From positions 1 through 64,000 of the forward strand of contig QIBA01000048.1 in NCBI GenBank assembly GCA_003225175.1: 64,000 nucleotides of DNA. The letters run 5' to 3'. The DNA is from Acidobacteriota bacterium. GTDB taxonomy: Bacteria > Acidobacteriota > Terriglobia > Terriglobales > Acidobacteriaceae. Below, in pieces: positions 21,441-60,009 of the stretch (position 1 is its first letter; every line of letters starts with the position of its first letter). The notes under the pieces are model-generated. The model had not been told where the DNA came from. It saw only the letters and a list, made by a program, of their open reading frames with translations, and made no database searches. The position numbers were made by a program, and so were the translations under genes.

Positions 21441-22966
21441 CTAGCCCTGATTCCCAGAGTGCATCACTCGGAAGGTGCTTCCGCCCTGGCTCCAGATCCG
21501 GACCAGAGCATCCTCTCCGTTGGGAATCTTCGACAGGGCTTCTTTCACATCTGCCGCAGATTGCGTCGGTTTGCGGTTTACCGACTGAATAACATCGCCC
21601 GCCGCCAGACCAGCATTGTCCGCAGGGCTGCCCGGTTGTACGCGGGCTACAACCGCGCCTTTAACGTCGTCAGGAGCTTGAAGTTGAGCACGAGTCTCAG
21701 AATTCAATTCGCTCAGGCGGATGCCCCAGCGAGCCTTGCCTTCGGGATTCGCGGCGCTCTCCTCGTCGCTGCCTCTGTTTTGCCGAGTTCTTCAACGGTA
21801 ACCGGCAGAGTGAGCTCCTTGCCATCGCGCATCACCCGGAGTTCCACCTTTTCGCCAGGCTGCTTCTGCCCGATTTCCACCTGCAACTGGCCGGCATCGC
21901 TCACTTCGTATCCGTCGACTTTAGTGATCACGTCGCCAACTTTGAGTCCGGCTTTCGCTCCAGGCGAGTTCGGTTCCACTTGCGTTATAACAGCACCCGA
22001 AGCCTTCGACATCTGGAAGAACTTGGAGTTCTCTGGCGTGACGTCGGTGATACCAATCCCGATATAGGAATGACGAACTTTTCCATACCGGATGAGCTTG
22101 TCAACGATTGGCTTCACGATCTGCGTGGGGATGGCAAAGCCCATTCCCGAAAAGGCACCGGAAGGCGAGATAAGGAACGTGTTGATTCCCACTACCTCTC
22201 CGTGAGCATCGACCAGCGGACCGCCGGAATTCCCCTGGTTAATGGCCGCGTCGGTCTGAATGAACTGTCCAGGCTTATGCGGATCGCTCGAATCCGGATT
22301 AGGACGGTTCAATGCGCTCACGATGCCGCGAGTCACGCTGAAACGGAATCCCAAAGGATTGCCGAATGCCAGCACGGTTTGTCCAGGCTGCAGCTCGGTA
22401 GAGTCGCCGAATGGCACGCTTGGAAAATTGCTGCCATTGACTTTGATTACAGCCAAATCGGTGAGCGGATCTGCTCCGACGAGCTTGGCTTTTAGAATTC
22501 GCTTGTTGCTCATGGTGACGCGAATGTCCGTAGCCCCGTCGACAACGTGGTTGTTGGTCACGATGTATCCGTCAGGAGAGATGAAGACGCCACTTCCGAG
22601 TCCATGCACGATGCGGTTCTGAGGCTGCATCGGATGTCCGAAGAACTGCCCGAAGCCTTGCATGCCGTTGGGGAGTTCCGGCATTCCCTCAGCCGAGAGA
22701 TCTACTTTCGTCTTTGACGTAACCGTGACATTCACGATCGCCGGAGTGACGCGGGCAGCCAAAGTCTCCATCGCCTTGTCGAGCGACAGCAACGCGCTGA
22801 CGCTGTTGTCGTCCAGAGCCGCTGCGGCCGGCGCTGGAGTTCCGACTGCAGCTTGCGCCACGTCTGGCTTAAAGAATTCATGTGCTCCAAGAGACATGAT
22901 CGTCGCCAAAGCAATCGCCGGCGCAACCATGCGTTTTGAGAGCGCTGTTTTCCATCTACTACTCAT
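21441..22966 (-). pseudogene. HtrA/DegP-type periplasmic serine protease, frameshifted between PDZ1 and PDZ2
   Basis: The first 417 residues (to 21713) give an N-terminal signal/anchor (RMVAPAIALATIMSLGAH), a complete trypsin-like triad (His in TNNHVVDG, Asp in DPLTDLAVIKV, Ser in QGNSGGPLVD) and a first PDZ domain. Near 21775 one base appears lost: the frame runs into RRAPRIPKARL and stops. The neighbouring frame continues with EESAANPEGKARWGIRLSEL and a second PDZ domain ending at 21441 (GSPADNAGLAAGDVIQSV). The shortened product keeps protease and PDZ1 and could still work. A sequencing error is also possible. Function: quality control of misfolded envelope proteins. Confidence 0.85.
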
Positions 22967-22987
22967 CTGCTTTTGTCTCCTTCGTAA

Positions 22988-23003
22988 AACTAATTAATTA
23001 GTT
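22988..23003. promoter_or_regulatory. Candidate BlaI-type operator ahead of htrA
   Basis: AACTAATTAATTAGTT is a perfect 16-bp palindrome located 22-37 bp upstream of the htrA start, in the gap after the M56 peptidase gene. A near-identical palindrome lies upstream of the blaI-like gene (24895-24910). BlaI and MecI repressors bind such A/T-rich dyads, so shared control of protease and regulator is likely but unproven. Confidence 0.6.
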
Positions 23004-23023
23004 GATATGTTGAAAAAAAAGCC

Positions 23024-24472
23024 CTAAATCGACTTGGAGCCGTTTCCGTTTTGGGCTTGATTCAGTGTTTGCTGCACGGTTAAAACTTGCCACGACCTGA
23101 CGCTTACGAAGCAATTCCCGTATTCATCGCAAATCACGGTCTGCATTACTAGCAGCAGAGTGGGCACTATCGCCGCTTGATTCGCAGTCATTTGTTCTTG
23201 GTTCCAGTTTGCACGTGCAAGCCTGAGCGATGGCTTTAGCTTCGCGTTCGTCTCAATATCATTCGTGAGCACACTTTTTGTTAGTGCTGAATTGATTAGC
23301 GCTGCATTTCTGGAACCTCTCGCACCTCGAGTTCGCAGCTCCGCTTTCCGGAGAGCCGGATGCAAAAGACCTTCCCCCATGCTGGTTTCAATTTGGGCCG
23401 ACGTCGACACGATTGCAGCGATCGATTGTGCGACGTTGGCTACCGCAGGATGATTTTGTGCAATGGTCGCTGGAGCCGCATCGCTGAACACGACGATCGC
23501 AGGCATACGCGGCATTTCGATCAGAAAAGCCAGGGTCAATGTCGCAAAAGTCGCTAGGACTGGCTTGCATACTTGGGTTCCTGCCGGTCGGTTCTGATCG
23601 AGAATCCGTGTGAGACGCGCAGTAGTCTCGCGAATCCGGCTGACCGCCGCAACGGCAACCGCAAATGGGCGCCGTCCCACGCTTTTTTCCGCAACAGAGA
23701 CCAGGCATTTGGCGTAGCCGCGAGCATCACAGGTTTTCGCAACGACCAGGTCATCACAGGCAGCCTCGCGTTCCAACGCAAGTCGCGAATCGATCCACCA
23801 CACCGCAGGATGAAAGAAGAGCAGAGCCTGCAAGATTTTTTGTGCGAGATTGGTCCAATCGTCCCGGCGGCGAAGATGCCCGAGTTCGTGCAGCAGAATT
23901 GAGTTGAGTTCGTCGGCCGAAAGTTCTCTCATCGCCCACGAAGGAAGCAGGATCGCGGGTCGAAAGAAGCCGAGCGCTGTTGGTACTGACACGTCATCGG
24001 AAATGCAAAGCGCGACAGGCCGGTTCGCAGTCTCGGCGAGGTTCAAGTTCAATGTCGGATCCGACTTAAGCAGCGCACGAGCTGCTGATCCAGAAGCAAC
24101 GCTCTCGGCCAGTTCTACGCTACGGCGACGGATTCTATGAACGCGCCACAGTCCTGCGGCGATCCTGATGAGTCCAATTCCAGCGCCGACCATCCAAAGA
24201 CCAAAAAGGGCGAGAGCCCATCGGCTTGGAATAGCGATGCCTTCAGCCGACTGAACTCCCGTGACATGACCACTGACAAAGCAGGAGGCGATAGGGAGAA
24301 AGGCAACTGCCACGAGGGTTAGAAAGCAAACCGCAAATCTAGTGCTGGAAGTGCGGAAAGCTCGAATCACCACAGCAGTCAGCGCGGCCAGGAGGAGCCC
24401 TGCGGCTAGTCCTGATATCAGGCGTCCGCCGACGACTTGAGCAGCGGATTGAATTGCTGAAAGCACGCTCAT
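23024..24472 (-). CDS. BlaR1/M56-type membrane metallopeptidase
   Basis: This 482-residue protein has several N-terminal membrane helices (SGLAAGLLLAALTAVVIRAF, FAVCFLTLVAVAFLPIASCF, WALALFGLWMVGAGIGLIRI). A cytoplasmic zinc-protease domain has HELGH near residue 195 and EREAACDD downstream as third metal ligand. A further hydrophobic stretch is near 320. The C-terminal ~150 residues are low-complexity (Ala/Thr/Asn/Leu) and lack the penicillin-binding sensor of true BlaR1, so the signal is not a beta-lactam by this route. It overlaps the repressor gene by 4 bp. By family logic it would cleave or inactivate that repressor on sensing envelope stress. Confidence 0.9.
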   Translation of the reverse strand: MSVLSAIQSAAQVVGGRLISGLAAGLLLAALTAVVIRAFRTSSTRFAVCFLTLVAVAFLPIASCFVSGHVTGVQSAEGIAIPSRWALALFGLWMVGAGIGLIRIAAGLWRVHRIRRRSVELAESVASGSAARALLKSDPTLNLNLAETANRPVALCISDDVSVPTALGFFRPAILLPSWAMRELSADELNSILLHELGHLRRRDDWTNLAQKILQALLFFHPAVWWIDSRLALEREAACDDLVVAKTCDARGYAKCLVSVAEKSVGRRPFAVAVAAVSRIRETTARLTRILDQNRPAGTQVCKPVLATFATLTLAFLIEMPRMPAIVVFSDAAPATIAQNHPAVANVAQSIAAIVSTSAQIETSMGEGLLHPALRKAELRTRGARGSRNAALINSALTKSVLTNDIETNAKLKPSLRLARANWNQEQMTANQAAIVPTLLLVMQTVICDEYGNCFVSVRSWQVLTVQQTLNQAQNGNGSKSI

Positions 24473-24852
24473 TTGCGCTCGCTCGCCTCTAAGATTTGCC
24501 GCAGCTGCTTGATCTCCTCAGCGTTGAGTTCCTGCTCTTGCAGAAGATTCAAGAGAAGAGAGTGATGAGAATTACCGAAGAACCGGCTGACTAGATGTCG
24601 CACCTCCGACCTGCTCGCCTCGTCACGCGCGATTACTGGGCGATAAATGTGCGCACGACCATCCTTGGTGTGCTTCAAATAGCCCTTGTTTTCTAATATG
24701 CGGATCGTGGTGAGAACCGAGTTGTAAGCCAGGTCGTAGTCCGTGGCGAGCCAGTCGAGCACCTGCTGTACTGTGGCTGGCCCCTTACTCCAGAGCACGT
24801 TCATTAACCGCAGCTCCGCTTGTGTCAGGGTTTCGGACTGCTTGCGCGGCAT
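24469..24852 (-). CDS. BlaI/MecI/CopY-type transcriptional repressor
   Basis: This winged-helix repressor has 127 residues: TQAELRLMNVLWSKGPATVQ, then YNSVLTTIRILENKGYLKH as recognition helix and wing, then the dimerisation part with VSRFFGNSHHSLLLNLLQ. In this family the membrane M56 partner causes cleavage between the two halves and so relieves repression. The stop overlaps the M56 gene (ATGA), so the two are co-expressed. A palindrome 43-58 bp upstream is the expected self-regulatory operator. Confidence 0.95.
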   Translation of the reverse strand: MPRKQSETLTQAELRLMNVLWSKGPATVQQVLDWLATDYDLAYNSVLTTIRILENKGYLKHTKDGRAHIYRPVIARDEASRSEVRHLVSRFFGNSHHSLLLNLLQEQELNAEEIKQLRQILEASERK

Positions 24853-24894
24853 CCTTCTCCTCTGCTTGATTAGACGACTAGGCAGAAAAAAAGT

Positions 24895-24910
24895 AACTAA
24901 TTATTTAGTT
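24895..24910. promoter_or_regulatory. Candidate BlaI-type operator ahead of blaI
   Basis: AACTAATTATTTAGTT is a dyad with perfect six-base half-sites (AACTAA and TTAGTT) and a mismatched centre. It matches the htrA-side palindrome at 15 of 16 positions. Its place upstream of the repressor start suits autoregulation. Confidence 0.6.
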
Positions 24911-52160: not shown

Positions 52161-55100
52161 CTAGTCCCCGGCTTCCGGCTGCTGCACAGGACGCGGGCCC
52201 AATTTGGGTTTGCGAACAAAACGCAGTCGGAAGCGATCAAGATAGAGGTAAATCACTGGCGTTGTGAACAGCGTCAGCATCTGGCTGACGAGCAGGCCAC
52301 CTACGATTGCGATTCCCAGTGGACGACGCATTTCGCTTCCCGTTCCGGTACCGATCGCCAGCGGCAGAGCGCCAAACATGGCCGCCATCGTCGTCATCAT
52401 GATGGGACGAAAGCGTAACAAACAGGCTTCGCGCACCGCATCTTCTGGCGATTTACCTCCTTCACGTTCGCTCTGCAGCGCAAAATCGATCATCATGATG
52501 GCATTCTTCTTGACGATACCAATCAGCAGGATGATGCCGATCATCGCGATGACGGTGAATTCGGTATTGGTGAGCAGCAGAAAGATCAATGCGCCCAAGC
52601 CGGCTGAGGGCAGCGTGGAAAGAATCGTGACGGGATGCACAATGCTTTCGTAGAGCATTCCCAAGACGATATACACGGCGGCGAGTGCTGTGAGAATCAG
52701 AATCGGCTCGCTTTGTAGTGACGCCTGGAAGGCCTGCGCTGTGCCCTGGAAGCCCCCATGAATCGTGGATGGCATGCCCATCGTACGCGCAGCGTCTTCA
52801 ACCGCCGCTTCTGCTTTGTCGAGCGAAACACCAGGACCGAGATTGAACGAAATGGTCACCGCTGGGAACTGCCCCTGGTGTGCGACCGCGATGGCTGTTT
52901 CCGTGGGTTGAAAGTGAGCAAAGGCGCTGAGCGGCACCTCAGTTCCATTACGGGAATGAACATAAATGTTCCTTAGCGCCTCAGGTCCCTGACTGAACTT
53001 GGGATCCACTTCCATGACAACGTGATACTGATTGATGCCGCTATACATCACGGAAACCTGGCGCTGCCCAAAGGCGTCATAGAGCGTGCTGTCGATTTGT
53101 GCCGGCGTAACTCCGAGACGTCCCGCGGTCTCGCGATCGATCACGACCGTCACCTCCAGCCCATGATTCTGCTGGTCACTGGAGACGTCTCTCAGCTCCG
53201 GCATGCGCCGCATTTTCTCCACAAGCTGGGGAGCCCATTGCAGCAGGTCCTGAAGATTGTCGCCCTGAAGCGTGTATTGGAACTGAGAGTTGCTTCCTCG
53301 GCCGCCGATGTTCACGTCCTGCACTGGAACCATGAATAGCTGGGCGCCCGGAATGCGCGAGAGCTTGGGACGCAAACGGTTGACCACGTCGAAAGCCGAT
53401 TCCTTCCGCCCTTCTCCGAGCGGCTTGAGTTGGATGAACATGTTGGCTGAGTTTGTTCCGCCGCGTCCGCCGCCGCCTGTGAAGCTAATCGCGGTGTCAA
53501 TCGCGGGGTCTTTTAACACGATGCTGTTCAGGAGTTGCAGCTTCGCCTTCATCGCCTCAAATGAGACATCCTGCTGGCCGATCATGCTGCCAGAAATCCG
53601 TCCTGTGTCCTGTTGCGGGAAAAATCCTTTAGGGATGATGTAGTAGAGGTAAATGTTCAGCGTAATCGTAAGCAGCGTGATTACCAGCACCAGCGGTTGA
53701 TGGTCCAGAACCCAGTCGAGCGAATGGCGATATCCGTCGTGCAGCCAGTTGAAGGCACGTTCGCCCGCGTTATAGAGACGGCCATGCTTCCGGCCGTGTT
53801 CTGAGCGGAGAAATTTGGCGCACATCATGGGAGTGGTCGTGAGCGAAAAAACCAGCGACAGTAGTACGGCAACACTTAGTGTGACCGCGAACTCCCGAAA
53901 CAAACGCCCTACAATTCCACCCATCGCCAAAATGGGAATGAACACCGCAATGAGCGAGGTGCTCATCGAGAGCACAGTAAAGCCGATCTCCTTTGCTCCA
54001 AGCAGGGCCGCAGCCATGGGCTGCATGCCGGCCTCGAGATGGCGAGTAATGTTCTCGATAACTACGATCGCATCGTCAACCACAAATCCGGTAGAGATCG
54101 TCAACGCCATCAGGGACAAGTTGTCCAGCGTGTAGCCGGCGAGATACATCACGCCGAACGTTCCCACCAGAGACAGTGGTACGGCCACGCTGGGGATAAC
54201 TGTGGCCCATCCGCTGCGCAGAAAGAGGAAGACAACAAGGACAACCAGGCCTACTGAGATCGCCAGTGTGCGCTGCACGTCCCTTACCGAAGCTCGGATC
54301 GTGGTCGTGCGATCCATCACAACCTGCAACTTAACCGTCGGCGACACGGATGCCTGCAATTGCGGCAACAGCTCACGGACCCGATCGACGGTGCCAATGA
54401 TGTTCGCGCCCGGCTGTCGAGAAATCACCAGCAGTACAGCCGGCTTCCCGTTCGCGAGGCCTGCATTCTGGGTGTTTTCAACGGAGTCGCGAACGTCAGC
54501 AACTTCGTGCAGGAATACCGGCGTTCCACTCTTGGAGGTTACGATCAGATTCTGATAGTCGACGGCTTTAAAGATCTGGTCGTTAGTACCGATGCTCCAC
54601 GCGCTTTGGACGCCGCTGATCTGTCCCTTGGCGGAATGCGCATTCGCTGAACTAATTGCTGTCCGCACCGCATCGATGCCGACGTTCAGTTTGCTCAGCA
54701 ATAACGGATTCGCTTCTGCACGCACTGCAGGACGAGAACTTCCTCCTACAAAAACATTGCCAACCCCCTGGATCTGCGAAATCTTCTGCGCGAGCACCGA
54801 ATCAGCGATGTCGTACATCTGCTGCTGCGTCTGTATATCGGAGGTCAGAGCGACGATCATGATCGGCGCGTCAGCCGGATTCACCTTGCGCCAATTCGGA
54901 TTGCTCGGCAGGTTCGCAGGCAGTTGTCCCCGCGCAGCGTTGATGGCAGCTTGAACATCGCGCGCAGCCGCGTCGATATTTCGGCTTAGATCAAACTGCA
55001 GAGTGATGCCAGTTTGTCCAAGACCGCTGGACGAGGTCATTTGTGTGACGCCAGCAATGCGGCCAAATTGCCGTTCGAGGGGTGTTGCGACCGCAGAGGC

Positions 55101-55277
55101 CATCGTCTCCGGGCTTGCCCCCGGCAGACCAGCGTTCACCGAAACCGTGGGAAATTCCACTTCGGGAAGTGGAGCTACCGGCAACTTTGAATACGCCAGC
55201 GCTCCAGCCAGCAACACGGCAACACTGAGCAGCGATGTGCCAACCGGCCGGCGAATAAATGGAGTCGAAATGCTCAT
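52161..55277 (-). CDS. RND efflux transporter, MdtC-type permease
   Basis: This 1038-residue inner-membrane drug/proton antiporter begins MSISTPFIRRPVGTSLLSVA. It has the duplicated RND layout: 12 helices and two large periplasmic loops. The TM4 proton-relay pair is in [29 protein letters not shown]-type sequence is seen as [20 protein letters not shown] in TM10-11. It follows MdtB-type and MdtA-type genes in the order A-B-C of the enterobacterial mdtABC operon, and probably forms a B2C trimer. An outer-membrane factor gene is not adjacent. The 15-bp gap to the HD gene makes the two convergent. Confidence 0.93.
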   Translation of the reverse strand: MSISTPFIRRPVGTSLLSVAVLLAGALAYSKLPVAPLPEVEFPTVSVNAGLPGASPETMASAVATPLERQFGRIAGVTQMTSSSGLGQTGITLQFDLSRNIDAAARDVQAAINAARGQLPANLPSNPNWRKVNPADAPIMIVALTSDIQTQQQMYDIADSVLAQKISQIQGVGNVFVGGSSRPAVRAEANPLLLSKLNVGIDAVRTAISSANAHSAKGQISGVQSAWSIGTNDQIFKAVDYQNLIVTSKSGTPVFLHEVADVRDSVENTQNAGLANGKPAVLLVISRQPGANIIGTVDRVRELLPQLQASVSPTVKLQVVMDRTTTIRASVRDVQRTLAISVGLVVLVVFLFLRSGWATVIPSVAVPLSLVGTFGVMYLAGYTLDNLSLMALTISTGFVVDDAIVVIENITRHLEAGMQPMAAALLGAKEIGFTVLSMSTSLIAVFIPILAMGGIVGRLFREFAVTLSVAVLLSLVFSLTTTPMMCAKFLRSEHGRKHGRLYNAGERAFNWLHDGYRHSLDWVLDHQPLVLVITLLTITLNIYLYYIIPKGFFPQQDTGRISGSMIGQQDVSFEAMKAKLQLLNSIVLKDPAIDTAISFTGGGGRGGTNSANMFIQLKPLGEGRKESAFDVVNRLRPKLSRIPGAQLFMVPVQDVNIGGRGSNSQFQYTLQGDNLQDLLQWAPQLVEKMRRMPELRDVSSDQQNHGLEVTVVIDRETAGRLGVTPAQIDSTLYDAFGQRQVSVMYSGINQYHVVMEVDPKFSQGPEALRNIYVHSRNGTEVPLSAFAHFQPTETAIAVAHQGQFPAVTISFNLGPGVSLDKAEAAVEDAARTMGMPSTIHGGFQGTAQAFQASLQSEPILILTALAAVYIVLGMLYESIVHPVTILSTLPSAGLGALIFLLLTNTEFTVIAMIGIILLIGIVKKNAIMMIDFALQSEREGGKSPEDAVREACLLRFRPIMMTTMAAMFGALPLAIGTGTGSEMRRPLGIAIVGGLLVSQMLTLFTTPVIYLYLDRFRLRFVRKPKLGPRPVQQPEAGD

Positions 55278-55412
55278 CTAGTTCAATCGCGTGATCGAGT
55301 GAAGCGAAACCTTGGCTATCAGCTTTCGGCTTTCGGCCAATAACCTTCATGGCAGTTCACGAAACCGCGAATAGGTTGAAAGCGCGATGCCCAACGCATG
55401 TTTTTACTTCAC

Positions 55413-55441
55413 CCGATGACGCGATCACCCGATCACCCGAT
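55413..55441. repeat. Short tandem repeat between the two RND permease genes
   Basis: GATCACCC occurs twice in tandem with a third partial unit, next to related CACCCGATGACGC sequence. The 170-bp spacer between the permease genes holds nothing else I can name. A CTTTCGG duplication lies at about 55322-55335. Confidence 0.5.
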
Positions 55442-55447
55442 TTCTTT

Positions 55448-58400
55448 TTAGTCCGCTCCTACGGGTTCCTCAACTACCTGGTTAATTCGGAAGCGGCCCA
55501 CCCTTCGGGCCATCCGATCGAAGAACAGGTAGACGACAGGAGTTGTGTACAAAGTGAGGACTTGGCTGACCAGCAGTCCTCCGACGATCGTGACGCCGAG
55601 TGGACGGCGCAGCTCCGATCCCGTTCCGGAACCGAGCGCCAGCGGCAGTCCACCAAACATCGCAGCAAAGGTTGTCATCAGGATTGGGCGGAAGCGAAGC
55701 AGGCAAGCCTGATAGATCGCGTCGCGTGGCGGTTTACCTTGGTCGCGTTCTGCTTCCAGCGCAAAATCGATCATCATGATGGCATTCTTCTGCACAATGC
55801 CGATCAGCAGGATGATGCCGATCAATGCGACTACCCCAAATTCAAGCCGGAACAGCAGTAAGGCGAGAATCGCTCCAACACCAGCCGAGGGCAGCGTCGA
55901 AAGGATCGTGAGCGGATGAATATAACTCTCGTACAACACACCCAACACGATGTACACAGTAATGAGCGCCGCTAGCACCAGATAGGGTTCATTGGCCAGC
56001 GAGCTCTGGAAGACCGCCGCCGTGCCCTGGAAACTCGGATGAATGCTGGCCGGCATTCCAATCTCGGCACGCGCAGCATCAATCAATTTGGTCGCTTCGC
56101 CCAGCGACGCTCCAGGAGCGAGATTGAAGGAGACCGTAGCCACCGGGAACTGTCCCTGGTGATAGATCGCCACTGGAGTTGTTGTGGTCTCAATGTGGGC
56201 AAAAGCACTCAGCGGAATGATTTGCGATCTTCCGCTGGCCACGTTCGGGACAGGAGCACTGCCTGTGCCGCTGCTCGCCTGTGTTGAGCTCCCTGCCGAC
56301 GATCCACTTGAAGTCTGATTCGCAGCCGCAGCGCCTACGGACGCACCGCCAACGCCGCCTCCGCTCGTTGCCGGGGGGGGCCCACCGGGAGAGGCATGCA
56401 CATAAATGTCGTTGAGATCGTTCGGCGTGAGCTGGTGGTCTGGCGAAACCTCCAGCACCACGTGATATTGGTTGAGCTGCGTAAAGATGGTCGAGATGAG
56501 CCGCTGCCCAAAGGCGTCGTATAGAGTGTCGTCGATCATTTGCGGCGTCACACCGAGGCGAGAGGCGGTATTGCGATCTACGACCAGATCTGCTTCGAGA
56601 CTGCCCGATCCCTGATCGCTGGCAACATCGCGCAACTCGGGAATCTGCTGCAATCTTTGAAGCAGCTTGGGAACGTATTCCGTCAGGTCATTGGCGTTCG
56701 CGCTTTCCAATGTGTACTGAAACTGAGTGCGACTGATGCGGTTCTCGACGGTAATGTCCTGCACCGGCTGCATGTACAGGATGATGCCTGGAATCTGACT
56801 CACATTGGGCTGCAACCGGCGGATAATCTCGGAAGCGCTGGCCTTACGTTCCTCGCGCGGTTTCAGATTGATCTGAATGCGGCCTACGTTCGGCGTCATG
56901 TTCGTGCCGTCAACACCGATAAACGACGACAGGCTCTCGACGTCGGCATCCTTCAGCACAATATCCGCCAACTGCTGTTGTCGAGCCGCCATCGCCTTGA
57001 ACGAAGAGGTCTCCGGCGCTTCCGTGATTCCGAGAATCACCCCCGTGTCCTGAACTGGGAAAAATCCCTTCGGAACAATAATGAAAAGAAATATGGTCAA
57101 GGCAAGGGTGCCGACTGTCACCAGCAACGTGATTGGCTGCTGCTCCAGAACAACTCTCAGAGTGGAGGCATAGGCGTCGCGCAGCCGGTTGAAGGCTCTT
57201 TCCGAACCTCGCGCAAACCAACTCTCGTGCTTTTTGTCCGTCTTCTTCAGCAGGCGCGCCGACATCATCGGCGTGAGAGTGAGCGAGACAAACGCAGAGA
57301 CGAGAATGGTGACGCTCAAAGTCACTGCAAACTCACGGAACAGCCGGCCAACAATGTCCCCCATGAAAAGCAGCGGAATGAGCACCGCGATGAGAGAAAC
57401 CGTCAACGACACAATGGTGAAGCCGATCTGCTTCGATCCCATCAGAGCGGCTTCCAGCGGCGGATGCCCTTCTTCAATGAAGCGATCGATGTTTTCGATC
57501 ATCACAATGGCGTCGTCTACGACGAATCCGGTTGAGATTGTGAGAGCCATCAAAGAAAGATTGTCGAGTGAATAGCCGAGCAGGTACATCACTCCAAAGG
57601 TGCCGACAATCGACAGCGGCACAGCGACGCTGGGAATGATGGTCGCAGCGACGTGTCGCAGGAACACAAAGATGACCATTACTACGAGCGCAATCGTCAG
57701 GAGCAACTCAAATTCGACATCCCGCACCGAAGCCCGAATGGTTACAGTCCGATCCGTCAGCACTGTAACCTTTACCGTTGGCGGCAGCGCGGCATTGAGC
57801 TGCGGCAGCAGCTTCACGATCCGGTCCACAACGTTGATGATGTTCGCGCCGGGCTGCCGTTGAACGTTCACGATCACCGCCGGCGTCCTGTTCATCCAGG
57901 CAGATTGCTGTACATTCTCGACGCCGTCGATAACGTTGGCTACATCCTGCACGCGAACCGGCGCACCGTTTCGATAAGCGATGATGATGGGTTTGTAGTC
58001 GTCGCCGGAATAAATTTGATCGTTTGCGCCGATACTGAACGATTGCTGCGGCCCCTGGATGTTGCCTTTGGCTTGATCTGTATTGGCGGCGGCGAGTCCG
58101 CTGCGTAAATCTTCGAGACTCAGACCGTATGACGCCAGAGCTGTCGGATTCGCCTGAATCCGCACTGCCGGCTTTTGTCCACCACTGATGGTTACCAGTC
58201 CCACTCCGGGAAGCTGGGAGATCTTCTGGGCCAGAGTTGTATCGGCCAAATCCTCGACTTTGCTCAATGGCAATTGATCCGAGGTGAGCGCCAGAGTCAA
58301 AATCGGCGAATCCGCCGGATTCACCTTGCTATAAATAGGAGGATTTGGCAGATCACGCGGTAGATATGTTCCTGCAGCGTTGATGGCTGCCTGAACCTCC

Positions 58401-58717
58401 TGCTCAGCCACATCGATGTTCTGTTGCAGCTCGAATTGCAGGGTGATCAGCGAGCCCCCGTAGGAGCTGACGGATGTCATCTGGTTCAGTCCCGGAATCT
58501 CTCCGAACTGCCGCTCCATCGGAGCGGTCACAGACGACGTCATCACATCCGGACTCGCGCCCGGATAAAAAGTCAGAATCTGAATTGTAGGGTAATCAAC
58601 CTGCGGCAGCGCTGATACAGGTAGCTGTCGGTACGCCACCATGCCGGCGAGCAGGATGCCGACCATTAACAGCGACGTTGCGACCGGTCGCAGAATAAAA
58701 ATGCGAGACGGATTCAT
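55448..58717 (-). CDS. RND efflux transporter, MdtB-type permease
   Basis: This 1089-residue RND permease begins [20 protein letters not shown]. The TM4 motif is [38 protein letters not shown]-like sequence (preceded by VQ) is near the TM10-11 boundary. It is about 50 residues longer than its partner, mainly because of a Gly/Ser/Ala-rich insertion near residues 772-832 in the second periplasmic loop. This low-complexity segment is not typical of MdtB and may be a flexible linker or a slippage product. It overlaps mdtA (4 bp). Confidence 0.93.
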
Positions 58718-60009
58718 GCTCCATGACCGGCGCGCCGGCCTGCTCCTCCAGGACGGCCCGAGGGAGTCGCCTGCCCAGGCTGCTGTCCCGGTATTTGCGC
58801 ATCAACGCGGCTGCCCGGCTGTAACTTCTCTTGACCGTCCGTCACGACCTGCTCCCCAGGATTAACTCCGGAGTCAACCACGGCACTAAGGCCTTCAGTA
58901 AGCGCGACCTTGATCGGCCTTTGTTCTACGGTCTTGTCCTCTTTCAGCGCGTAAACGTAGGTACCCTGTGCGCCTCGCTGCACCGCCGTGGCCGGAATCG
59001 TAATGGCATTCTGGCGCGTGTAGACCTCCAGGCGTGCGTTCACAAACTGATTCGGATACAAGGCATTATCACGATTATCAAAGACTGCCTTCAGGCGAAA
59101 TGTTCCCGTATTGGGATCGATCTGATTGTCGATCGTTTCCAGGCGACCGTCCGCGATCTGTTGCGTGTCGTCGCGATTCCAAGCCTGTACCTCCAGCCGG
59201 CCGCTCCTCATGTGCTGAGTCACCATTGGCAAGTTGTCCTCGGGCAAGGTGAAGAGGACAGAAATCGGCTGCAGCTGAGTAATCACCAGCAATCCATTCG
59301 CATCGGAGGCATGAACCATGTTGCCAGGATCGACTAGTCGCAATCCGACTTGGCCGTCGATTGGAGCCTTGATGTGGCTGTAGGTAAGGTTCAGCTTGGC
59401 ATTATTGATCTGGGCATCGTCGGCACGCACCAGACCTTCCTGTTGGGCCACCAGCGATTCCTGTGTGTTGTATTGCTGCTGGGCGATTACGCCTTGCTTG
59501 TAGAGATCGGCATAGCGCTGCAAATCGCGCCGCGCATTTTCGAGGTTTGCCTGGTCCTTGAACTTTGTCGCTTCAGCCTGCGCGACCTGCACTTCGTAAG
59601 GTCGAGGGTCGATCAACGCGAGTTCATCGCCTTTGCGGATGTGCTGTCCTTCGCGGAAATTCACCTGCATCAGCTGGCCATCCACACGACTGTGAATAGT
59701 CACCGTGTAATAGGCCTGAACATTCCCCAATCCCTCGAGGTAAACGGGCATGTCACGCTGCTGCACGGGAGCAACTGAGACGGGGATGGCGCGATTGGCA
59801 TCAGCCCCAGCGGCACCACGACCTCCCTGCCCACGAGCGGAGTTCTGATCTGGCGCCTTGTGCAGCGATCGAAGCCCAAACATACCCAGCGCAATAACAG
59901 CAAAGATGACAATGATCCAGATGACCGTTTTTCGGCCGCCCGAGCTACGCCGCGGTGGGATTTCCACTTCTCTTAGATCGGGTGGTGGAGTTATGAGTGG
60001 TTGTGCCAT
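58714..60009 (-). CDS. RND periplasmic adaptor, MdtA-type
   Basis: This 431-residue membrane-fusion protein links the inner-membrane permeases with an outer-membrane channel. It has an N-terminal anchor ([20 protein letters not shown]), then a lipoyl/hairpin region ([40 protein letters not shown]) and a beta-barrel/MP domain ([40 protein letters not shown]). The Pro/Gly-rich tail ends ...[14 protein letters not shown]. The gene is first in the A-B-C order, so the promoter should be upstream of 60009. Confidence 0.93.

Follow-up and report, generated by a model that had tools for sequence, protein, structure and literature searches.

A BlaI/M56 regulatory pair with paired palindromes and an HtrA protease gene as its probable output in Acidobacteriaceae

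To our knowledge, the signals and outputs of most BlaI/M56 repressor-sensor pairs outside beta-lactam resistance are unknown. According to excerpts of the published accounts, BlaR1 of Staphylococcus aureus cuts the repressor BlaI directly, between Asn101 and Phe102 (PMC9834060), and PDZ domains often read C-termini, as that of DegS does (PMC7593790). Here we describe a related locus in a 64,000-nt stretch of contig QIBA01000048.1 from an Acidobacteriota bacterium (hereafter the window). The locus, at positions 21441-24910 on the minus strand, contains genes for (i) a BlaI-like repressor, (ii) a membrane peptidase of the M56 family and (iii) an HtrA-type serine protease, together with two palindromes, designated O1 and O2, which precede the first and the third gene, respectively (Table 1). 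It is probable that the repressor controls htrA through these sites, and we tentatively propose that the state of HtrA is reported back to the sensor through the C-terminus of the latter.

The open reading frames (ORFs) and their Pfam matches bear out the order repressor, M56 peptidase, HtrA on one strand, which had been given in a first-pass annotation of this DNA. The blaI and M56 ORFs share 4 bases, and 57 bp separate M56 from htrA. The repressor scores 120.3 bits against Penicillinase_R (PF03965), over the curated cut-off of 22.6, and none of the NCBIfam BlaI/MecI/CopY models is over its own (the best, CopY_TcrY, gives 74.1 against 121.95 bits; the other four listed are also under). A Pfam scan of the M56 protein (E 0.001) returned Peptidase_M56, with no penicillin-binding or transpeptidase family listed, in agreement with the earlier statement that a penicillin-binding domain is lacking. 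The blaR1_generic model reaches 78.8 bits against a cut-off of 400, and no listed BlaR1 or MecR1 model attains its threshold. Both palindromes were found where they had been placed: O2 (AACTAATTAATTAGTT) lies 22-37 bp before the htrA start codon (ATG at 22966), and O1 (AACTAATTATTTAGTT), with one mismatch to the other copy, lies 43-58 bp before that of blaI (24852), i.e. in front of the repressor's own operon. When up to three mismatches were allowed, the 16-mer matched the window three times, two of the matches overlapping at the blaI site; the mean in 100 shuffled sequences was 0.04.

Using the repressor as query, we searched 150 genomes of the family (drawn from a larger group) and found 72 close relatives in 71 of them (E <=6.7e-32, the next match being at 3.5e-25; hand count). 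The window and 60 fetched loci constitute a set of 61, with 11 of the 72 close places left out; repressors and sensors are each represented in it by 60 distinct sequences. The set falls into two clades, clade 1 (46 repressor rows, the window included) and clade 2 (15 loci, L103-L117). The order BlaI-like, M56, HtrA is present in 59 of the 61 loci, the sequence of the remaining two (L068 and L089) ending before htrA. Within 250 bp upstream of blaI, the best site matches all 12 fixed bases of AACTAA-N4-TTAGTT in 50 loci, 11 in seven, 10 in three and 9 in one; letter-shuffled upstream regions scored 11 once and 12 never in 1,300 trials. The htrA-side site of clade 1 (44 loci) scores 12/12 in 35 loci, 11 in five, 10 in three and 9 in one. 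Six of the 12 positions of the repressor's recognition helix are invariant across the 61 rows. A search of public sequences gave eight related loci, assigned to Acidobacteria gp1 or Acidobacteria bins, Terriglobia (one), Marinicaulis (two) and Maricaulis (one), of which four (L050-L053) appear to duplicate other fetched contigs.

In the 15 loci of clade 2, no site scoring at least 10 was detected within 300 bp before htrA. The site lies instead within the gene. In 14 loci it begins after the first 12 bases of htrA and covers codons 4-9; in L109 it covers codons 7-12 of the called ORF. Its best score is 12 in one locus, 11 in 11, 10 in one and 9 in two, and the sequence AACTAAT is intact in all 15. 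The site encodes Thr-Asn-x-Leu, with the Leu codon being TTA in 13 loci and CTA in two. Since only 17 of the 1452 Leu codons that M56 and the remainder of HtrA contain in the same loci are TTA, the bases of the in-gene site seem to be kept for their own sake, which would place a regulatory and a coding constraint on the same nucleotides. In a tree of HtrA (38 rows with the upstream site, 14 with the in-gene site and G063, a genome considered below; rows of <=480 aa, including the window's own HtrA, were excluded) the two types are split by one branch with a support of 100/100. The shift in the position of the htrA site is a single change on this tree.

We also inspected the distribution of the exact motif at the genome level. 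The 5.73-Mb assembly that includes the window carries three copies, against one of the backward control motif. The three are O1, O2 and a third within an integrase-like ORF of contig C86 (L048; G000 contig C86, 1-4357). This contig of 4.4 kb has 32% G+C and its ORFs, judged by eye, are presumably Gag-, reverse transcriptase- and integrase-like; it is probably a contaminating eukaryotic retroelement in an acidobacterial assembly. In the 26 ortholog-bearing genomes that were scanned, 47 of 55 exact sites fall in this operon (hand count), and G054, scanned alongside them, has none. A wider regulon defined by the motif was considered and rejected, as only eight sites lie outside the operon: one on the retroelement-like contig, five of the sequence AACTAACTGGTTAGTT (on either strand), one AACTAACCGTTTAGTT and one in G119. 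Four of these were inspected (L048, L172, L174 and L171); the sites of L172 and L174 are directly upstream of a TetR-like ORF, and an ORF lies 205 bp beyond the G119 site (L171), on its downstream side. The scan of family genomes that have no close ortholog covered 57 of 79 (G036, with a broken copy, and 21 others being left out), and five of the 57 contain an exact site, seven sites in total. Of the four inspected (L168, L169, L170 and L173) none adjoins htrA: the neighbours are Phd/YefM-like antitoxin ORFs at two sites, and a prolyl-tRNA-synthetase-like and a TetR-like ORF at one site each. The TetR-, Phd/YefM- and prolyl-tRNA-synthetase-like labels are our presumption from reading the ORFs. 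We note separately that AACTAACTGGTTAGTT or AACTAACCGTTTAGTT stands directly before TetR-like ORFs at L172:1614, L173:1469 and L174:1587, and that the exact motif stands directly before Phd/YefM-like ORFs at L168:1617 and L169:1853, in genomes without a BlaI ortholog. The TetR-adjacent sites perhaps belong to a separate regulator with a look-alike operator.

Such copies lend some weight to the idea that the palindromes serve another regulator, or arose by chance, as extra exact copies do adjoin TetR-like or antitoxin-like genes and other proteins can use similar sites. We nevertheless regard this as very improbable, because the pairs are conserved over the 61 loci, the sites are absent where the repressor is absent, and the core of the motif, CTAA-N4-TTAG, also precedes other blaI genes. 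As controls we used 20 in-family BlaI loci of the second tier, along with 19 loci from outside the family. The 250 bp before blaI contained the core in 9 of the 20 and 8 of the 19, respectively, and in three of four other named loci; its presence in so many control loci makes it look like a general BlaI-type site. None of the 20 in-family and 19 outside loci gave an HtrA match in stretches reaching 0.6-4.3 kb beyond the blaI start. What looks special in the present module is thus the addition of the AA/TT flanks and of HtrA to this core. One in-family locus fetched with the controls, L155, contained the entire module including the clade-2 tail described below and was left out as a positive, and four loci (L123, L124, L157 and L054) gave no M56 match. 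A second BlaI gene of the same genome (L049:2235-3754, contig C53), followed by an M56-like ORF of 325 aa, was examined as a possible co-regulator and rejected: its 7-kb stretch (forward strand, palindromic pattern) has no site scoring at least 9.

Eleven of the genomes lacking the ortholog were searched for this HtrA. Eight had no match at E 1e-60, two (G033 and G139) had partial matches of 45-46%, and G063 encodes a full-length relative, 69% identical to the window ORF; in the same search the protein was found in 5/5 ortholog-bearing genomes. In the 4.2-kb htrA locus of G063, neither blaI nor M56 has a match and no site reaches a score of 9, and the whole genome contains no exact motif site. 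Since G063 is placed inside the upstream-operator side of the HtrA tree, it looks like a natural, joint loss of repressor, sensor and operator, although this is a single case. The conserved paired sites, the relocated site of clade 2 and the absence of repressor, sensor and site from G063 strongly support the link from BlaI to htrA that had been proposed from the BlaI family, and make it well supported, as far as comparative sequence evidence goes, that HtrA is a BlaI-controlled output via O1 and O2. The genome-wide scan, named in the first-pass annotation as a check, likewise gave a motif nearly confined to the operon and not common at random positions. With HtrA as the conserved output, envelope stress is a candidate signal.

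The M56 protein resembles BlaR1 in its predicted transmembrane and protease parts. HExxH is present in 60/60 complete M56 proteins (that of L089 runs off its stretch), and a Foldseek search with the AlphaFold2 model gave six hits at E <=0.001, all of them BlaR1 chains from cryo-electron microscopy, with modest TM-scores (a measure of structural similarity). Beyond this core, the model predicts a final helix (residues 303-322), approximately 90 disordered residues, a hairpin (438-464) and a disordered tail; in the place of the BlaR1 penicillin-binding domain it thus has disorder plus the hairpin.

The extreme C-terminus of the sensor is conserved in a clade-specific manner. Positions were numbered backwards from the C-terminus with no gaps allowed, a scheme that favours the end, and entropy was computed over 44 of the 45 clade-1 rows, identical proteins being taken once. 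Among the final 40 positions, entropy is lowest at the last three; their sum is 5.83 bits, whereas random unaligned triplets drawn from this region average 11.07, and none of 5000 triplets was as low. The terminal residue of the 44 distinct proteins is Ile in 31, Thr in nine, Leu in three and Val in one, preceded by Ser at position -2 in 22 and Lys at -3 in 23. The ending [KNRSH]-x-[ITLV] ('-KSI'-like) occurs in 41 of 45 clade-1 proteins, and W-[LIFY]-[VIL]-[IVLF]-[QKE]-[LI] ('-GWLVIQL'-like) in 15 of 15 clade-2 proteins. Neither pattern is found in 39 control M56 proteins (18 in-family, 18 outside, 3 Maricaulis-type), and a C-terminal I, T, L or V, present in 45/45 clade-1 proteins, occurs in 3 of these 39. 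A cause at the DNA level was rejected for the clade-1 tail, as its Ser and Ile codons vary synonymously and all three stop codons occur; this variation indicates that the tail is held as protein. The distance from stop codon to operator in this clade ranges from 17 to 66 bases. In a separate group, the outside-family M56 proteins of L145, L146, L147 and L150 end in -QF, -SF, -QF and -AF, which is possibly another conserved sensor tail.

A short conserved free C-terminus beside a gene for a protease with two PDZ domains led us to propose the tail as a PDZ ligand. The PDZ1 loop Y-[MIL]-G-[IVL], which we take to be the carboxylate-binding loop, is present in 24 of 26 displayed clade-1 rows, out of 42 aligned, and in 14 of 15 clade-2 rows. 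In our model, the repressor would bind AACTAA-N4-TTAGTT at O1, in front of its own operon, and at O2, at the start of htrA, and so keep sensor and protease levels low. The M56 protein would reside in the inner membrane, with the zinc-protease domain on the cytoplasmic side; the disordered linker, the hairpin and the free C-terminus would form its tail in the periplasm. Once activated, it would cut the repressor near N102, as BlaR1 does BlaI, freeing both O1 and O2, whereupon sensor and HtrA would rise. For the cleavage and the membrane topology we rely on what is known of the family. In support of the cut, the aligned position is Asn in 46/46 clade-1 repressor rows, followed by I, L or V. The PDZ domain of the neighbouring HtrA may then read the sensor C-terminus: by holding or trimming the tail, free HtrA would keep the sensor inactive, and occupation of HtrA by misfolded proteins of the periplasm would release it. 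This binding and its sign are speculative; the sign was chosen because HtrA is the product, so that silencing by free HtrA gives a stable loop.

We give a probability of about 0.35 to the reading that a BlaR1-like receptor senses periplasmic folding through its own product, with the tail as PDZ ligand and HtrA occupancy setting repressor cleavage; confidence in the one-operon switch as a whole, comprising repressor, sensor and HtrA feedback through the tail, is evenly balanced. A plain BlaI/M56 switch may operate instead, with HtrA as output, no feedback from it, and a periplasmic ligand sensed perhaps by the hairpin; the conserved C-terminus would then have another function, be it in folding, in contact with the membrane, or for tail-specific proteases such as Prc or a different PDZ protein. 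This explanation, which is tentative too, agrees with the hairpin being the main confidently modelled part beyond the last transmembrane helix, with the difference in sensor ending between the clades and with the response of BlaR1 to a ligand of its sensor domain, as stated in excerpts of PMC9834060. It accounts less well for conserved clade-1 residues at a free end, in a stretch with a predicted local distance difference test score (pLDDT) below 50 that follows a linker of variable sequence, and for the absence of the ending from the 39 M56 proteins encoded at other BlaI loci, where the fetched stretches gave no HtrA match. HtrA might also be placed upstream in the pathway: as site-1 protease it would cleave the periplasmic tail of the sensor and thereby activate the latter (or complete its turnover after signalling), in the manner of DegS and RseA. 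DegS is indeed an HtrA-family sensor protease whose PDZ domain reads C-termini (PMC7593790, in part), and the HtrA His, Asp and Ser positions are each kept in 56 of 57 aligned rows (the exception, L077, is a match that stops at residue 133). We consider this unlikely: HtrA is the regulated product, and the resulting positive feedback would lack an evident brake.

Several observations weigh against the feedback model, or against parts of it. The triplet permutation shows that the ending is non-random and not that it is superior to the hairpin, which is itself conserved. Nine of the 44 distinct clade-1 tails end in Thr, an unusual terminal residue for ligands of HtrA PDZ domains; the clade-2 model places the final residues in one strand of a weak terminal hairpin, so that a role in folding rather than in binding is possible. 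The aligned cut position of clade 2 is S, A or T in 15/15 rows, followed by L or V, with no Asn. L080 scores just 9/12 at both sites, and a search around the sites found no consensus sigma-70 promoter, with 1.2 expected by chance. G054, of the same genus, has neither a repressor ortholog nor a close HtrA, which indicates that the module is dispensable. Finally, the htrA frame is broken in the window, in L077 and in L084.

In the window, htrA is not one open frame: the ORF at 21713-22966 stops after PDZ1, and PDZ2 is found in another frame. Compared with the closest relative, L058, there is one 1-base gap near 21780, in addition to two 3-base gaps, and PDZ2 is 91% identical despite the frameshift, which is either a recent mutation or an assembly error. 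The score against TIGR02037 (Do family), 396.9 against a cut-off of 416.2 bits, was obtained with the frame-truncated window ORF; PDZ1 and PDZ2 were both found.

Table 1. Coordinates of the predicted features of the blaI-M56-htrA locus in the window
Feature	Position	Strand	Basis
Operator O1, 5' of blaI-like gene	24895..24910	. (AACTAATTATTTAGTT on +)	Site search; 11-12/12 fixed bases in 57/61 loci
BlaI/MecI-family repressor, 127 aa	24469..24852	-	PF03965 6.8e-35; phmmer to MecI 7.5e-13
Codons N102-L103, aligned with the Asn-Phe BlaR1 cut site of BlaI	24544..24549	-	Alignment; cut site from PMC9834060 (excerpt)
M56 peptidase, putative membrane sensor/transducer, 482 aa	23024..24472	-	PF05569 8.6e-31; Foldseek to BlaR1 8exq E 2.4e-7
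HELGH zinc-peptidase motif, residues 195-199	23876..23890	-	H195, E196 and H199 invariant in 42-row alignment
Predicted beta-hairpin, residues 438-464, after disorder; presumed periplasmic	23081..23161	-	AlphaFold2 mean pLDDT 79-80 over 441-460
M56 extreme C-terminus K-S-I, proposed HtrA PDZ ligand	23027..23035	-	C-terminal residue conservation; synonymous codon variation
Operator O2, 5' of htrA (AACTAATTAATTAGTT)	22988..23003	.	11-12/12 in 40/44 clade-1 loci; within htrA ORF in clade 2
HtrA/DegP-type serine protease: N-terminal hydrophobic segment, protease domain, PDZ1	21713..22966	-	Trypsin_2 2.3e-38, PDZ_2 7.3e-20; TIGR02037 1.1e-118, under cut-off
PDZ2 of the same htrA, shifted out of frame by 1 base	21441..21707	-	PDZ_6 4.6e-14; in frame in L058

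The sensor tail, the in-gene operator and the htrA frameshift are additional to the first-pass annotation. Elsewhere in the window, positions 52161-60009 contain two adjoining genes for transporters of the resistance-nodulation-division type (ACR_tran, >1000 bits each) and an HlyD-type partner gene.

This BlaI/M56 pair has an output that is constant in 59 of 61 loci, a regulon that is apparently one operon, and a sensor with a short, testable element. In many members of this family of soil bacteria, a single protease for envelope quality control appears to be governed by a dedicated repressor and membrane sensor, acting through two matching DNA sites that the rest of the genome rarely contains. 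Should HtrA bind the tail, these Acidobacteriota would use a BlaR1-type switch for envelope proteostasis. The supply of an envelope protease would then be adjusted to demand by another architecture in addition to anti-sigma and two-component systems, with tail and PDZ domain re-matched separately in each of the two clades.

The module is a variant of the BlaI/M56 kind and not a new kind of system. Staphylococcal operators are TACA/TGTA dyads with divergent promoters; here, unlike in S. aureus, the genes are co-directional and the operator is AACTAA-N4-TTAGTT. The module shares with the BlaI-BlaR1 and MecI-MecR1 systems of that species, as far as excerpts of PMC9834060 and PMC7593790 describe them, the repressor family, an M56 core with HExxH and a repressor gene adjoining that of the sensor, and in clade 1 also the Asn at the aligned cut position of BlaI (PMC9834060). 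It differs from them in the lack of a penicillin-binding sensor domain and in having HtrA as the effector rather than beta-lactamase or PBP2a. BlaI_0696 and BlaI_1845 of Clostridium thermocellum, in the accessible part of PMC8457756, likewise have very small autoregulatory regulons with BlaR1-type genes in the same operon, and the site of BlaI_0696 is also an inverted repeat. In contrast to the present motif, the sites of C. thermocellum are built on GTCTAT/GACTAT, and the operon partners described in that part are hypothetical or a putative peptidoglycan-synthesis gene, with no HtrA. A literature search covering titles and the starts of abstracts, with most subscription papers outside its scope, found no module combining BlaI, M56 and HtrA. 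The BlaI/M56 pairs of other Acidobacteriota and of Maricaulis/Marinicaulis have both proteins in common with the module, and often the CTAA-N4-TTAG core, but lack an HtrA match in the fetched stretches and, in the 39 M56 proteins compared, either tail. With DegS-RseA-sigmaE, as outlined in PMC7593790 (excerpt), the module shares a periplasmic HtrA-family PDZ protease tied to an envelope stress response; unlike in that system, there is no anti-sigma factor, a DNA-binding repressor is presumably cut by a cytoplasm-facing M56 peptidase, and HtrA is the output.

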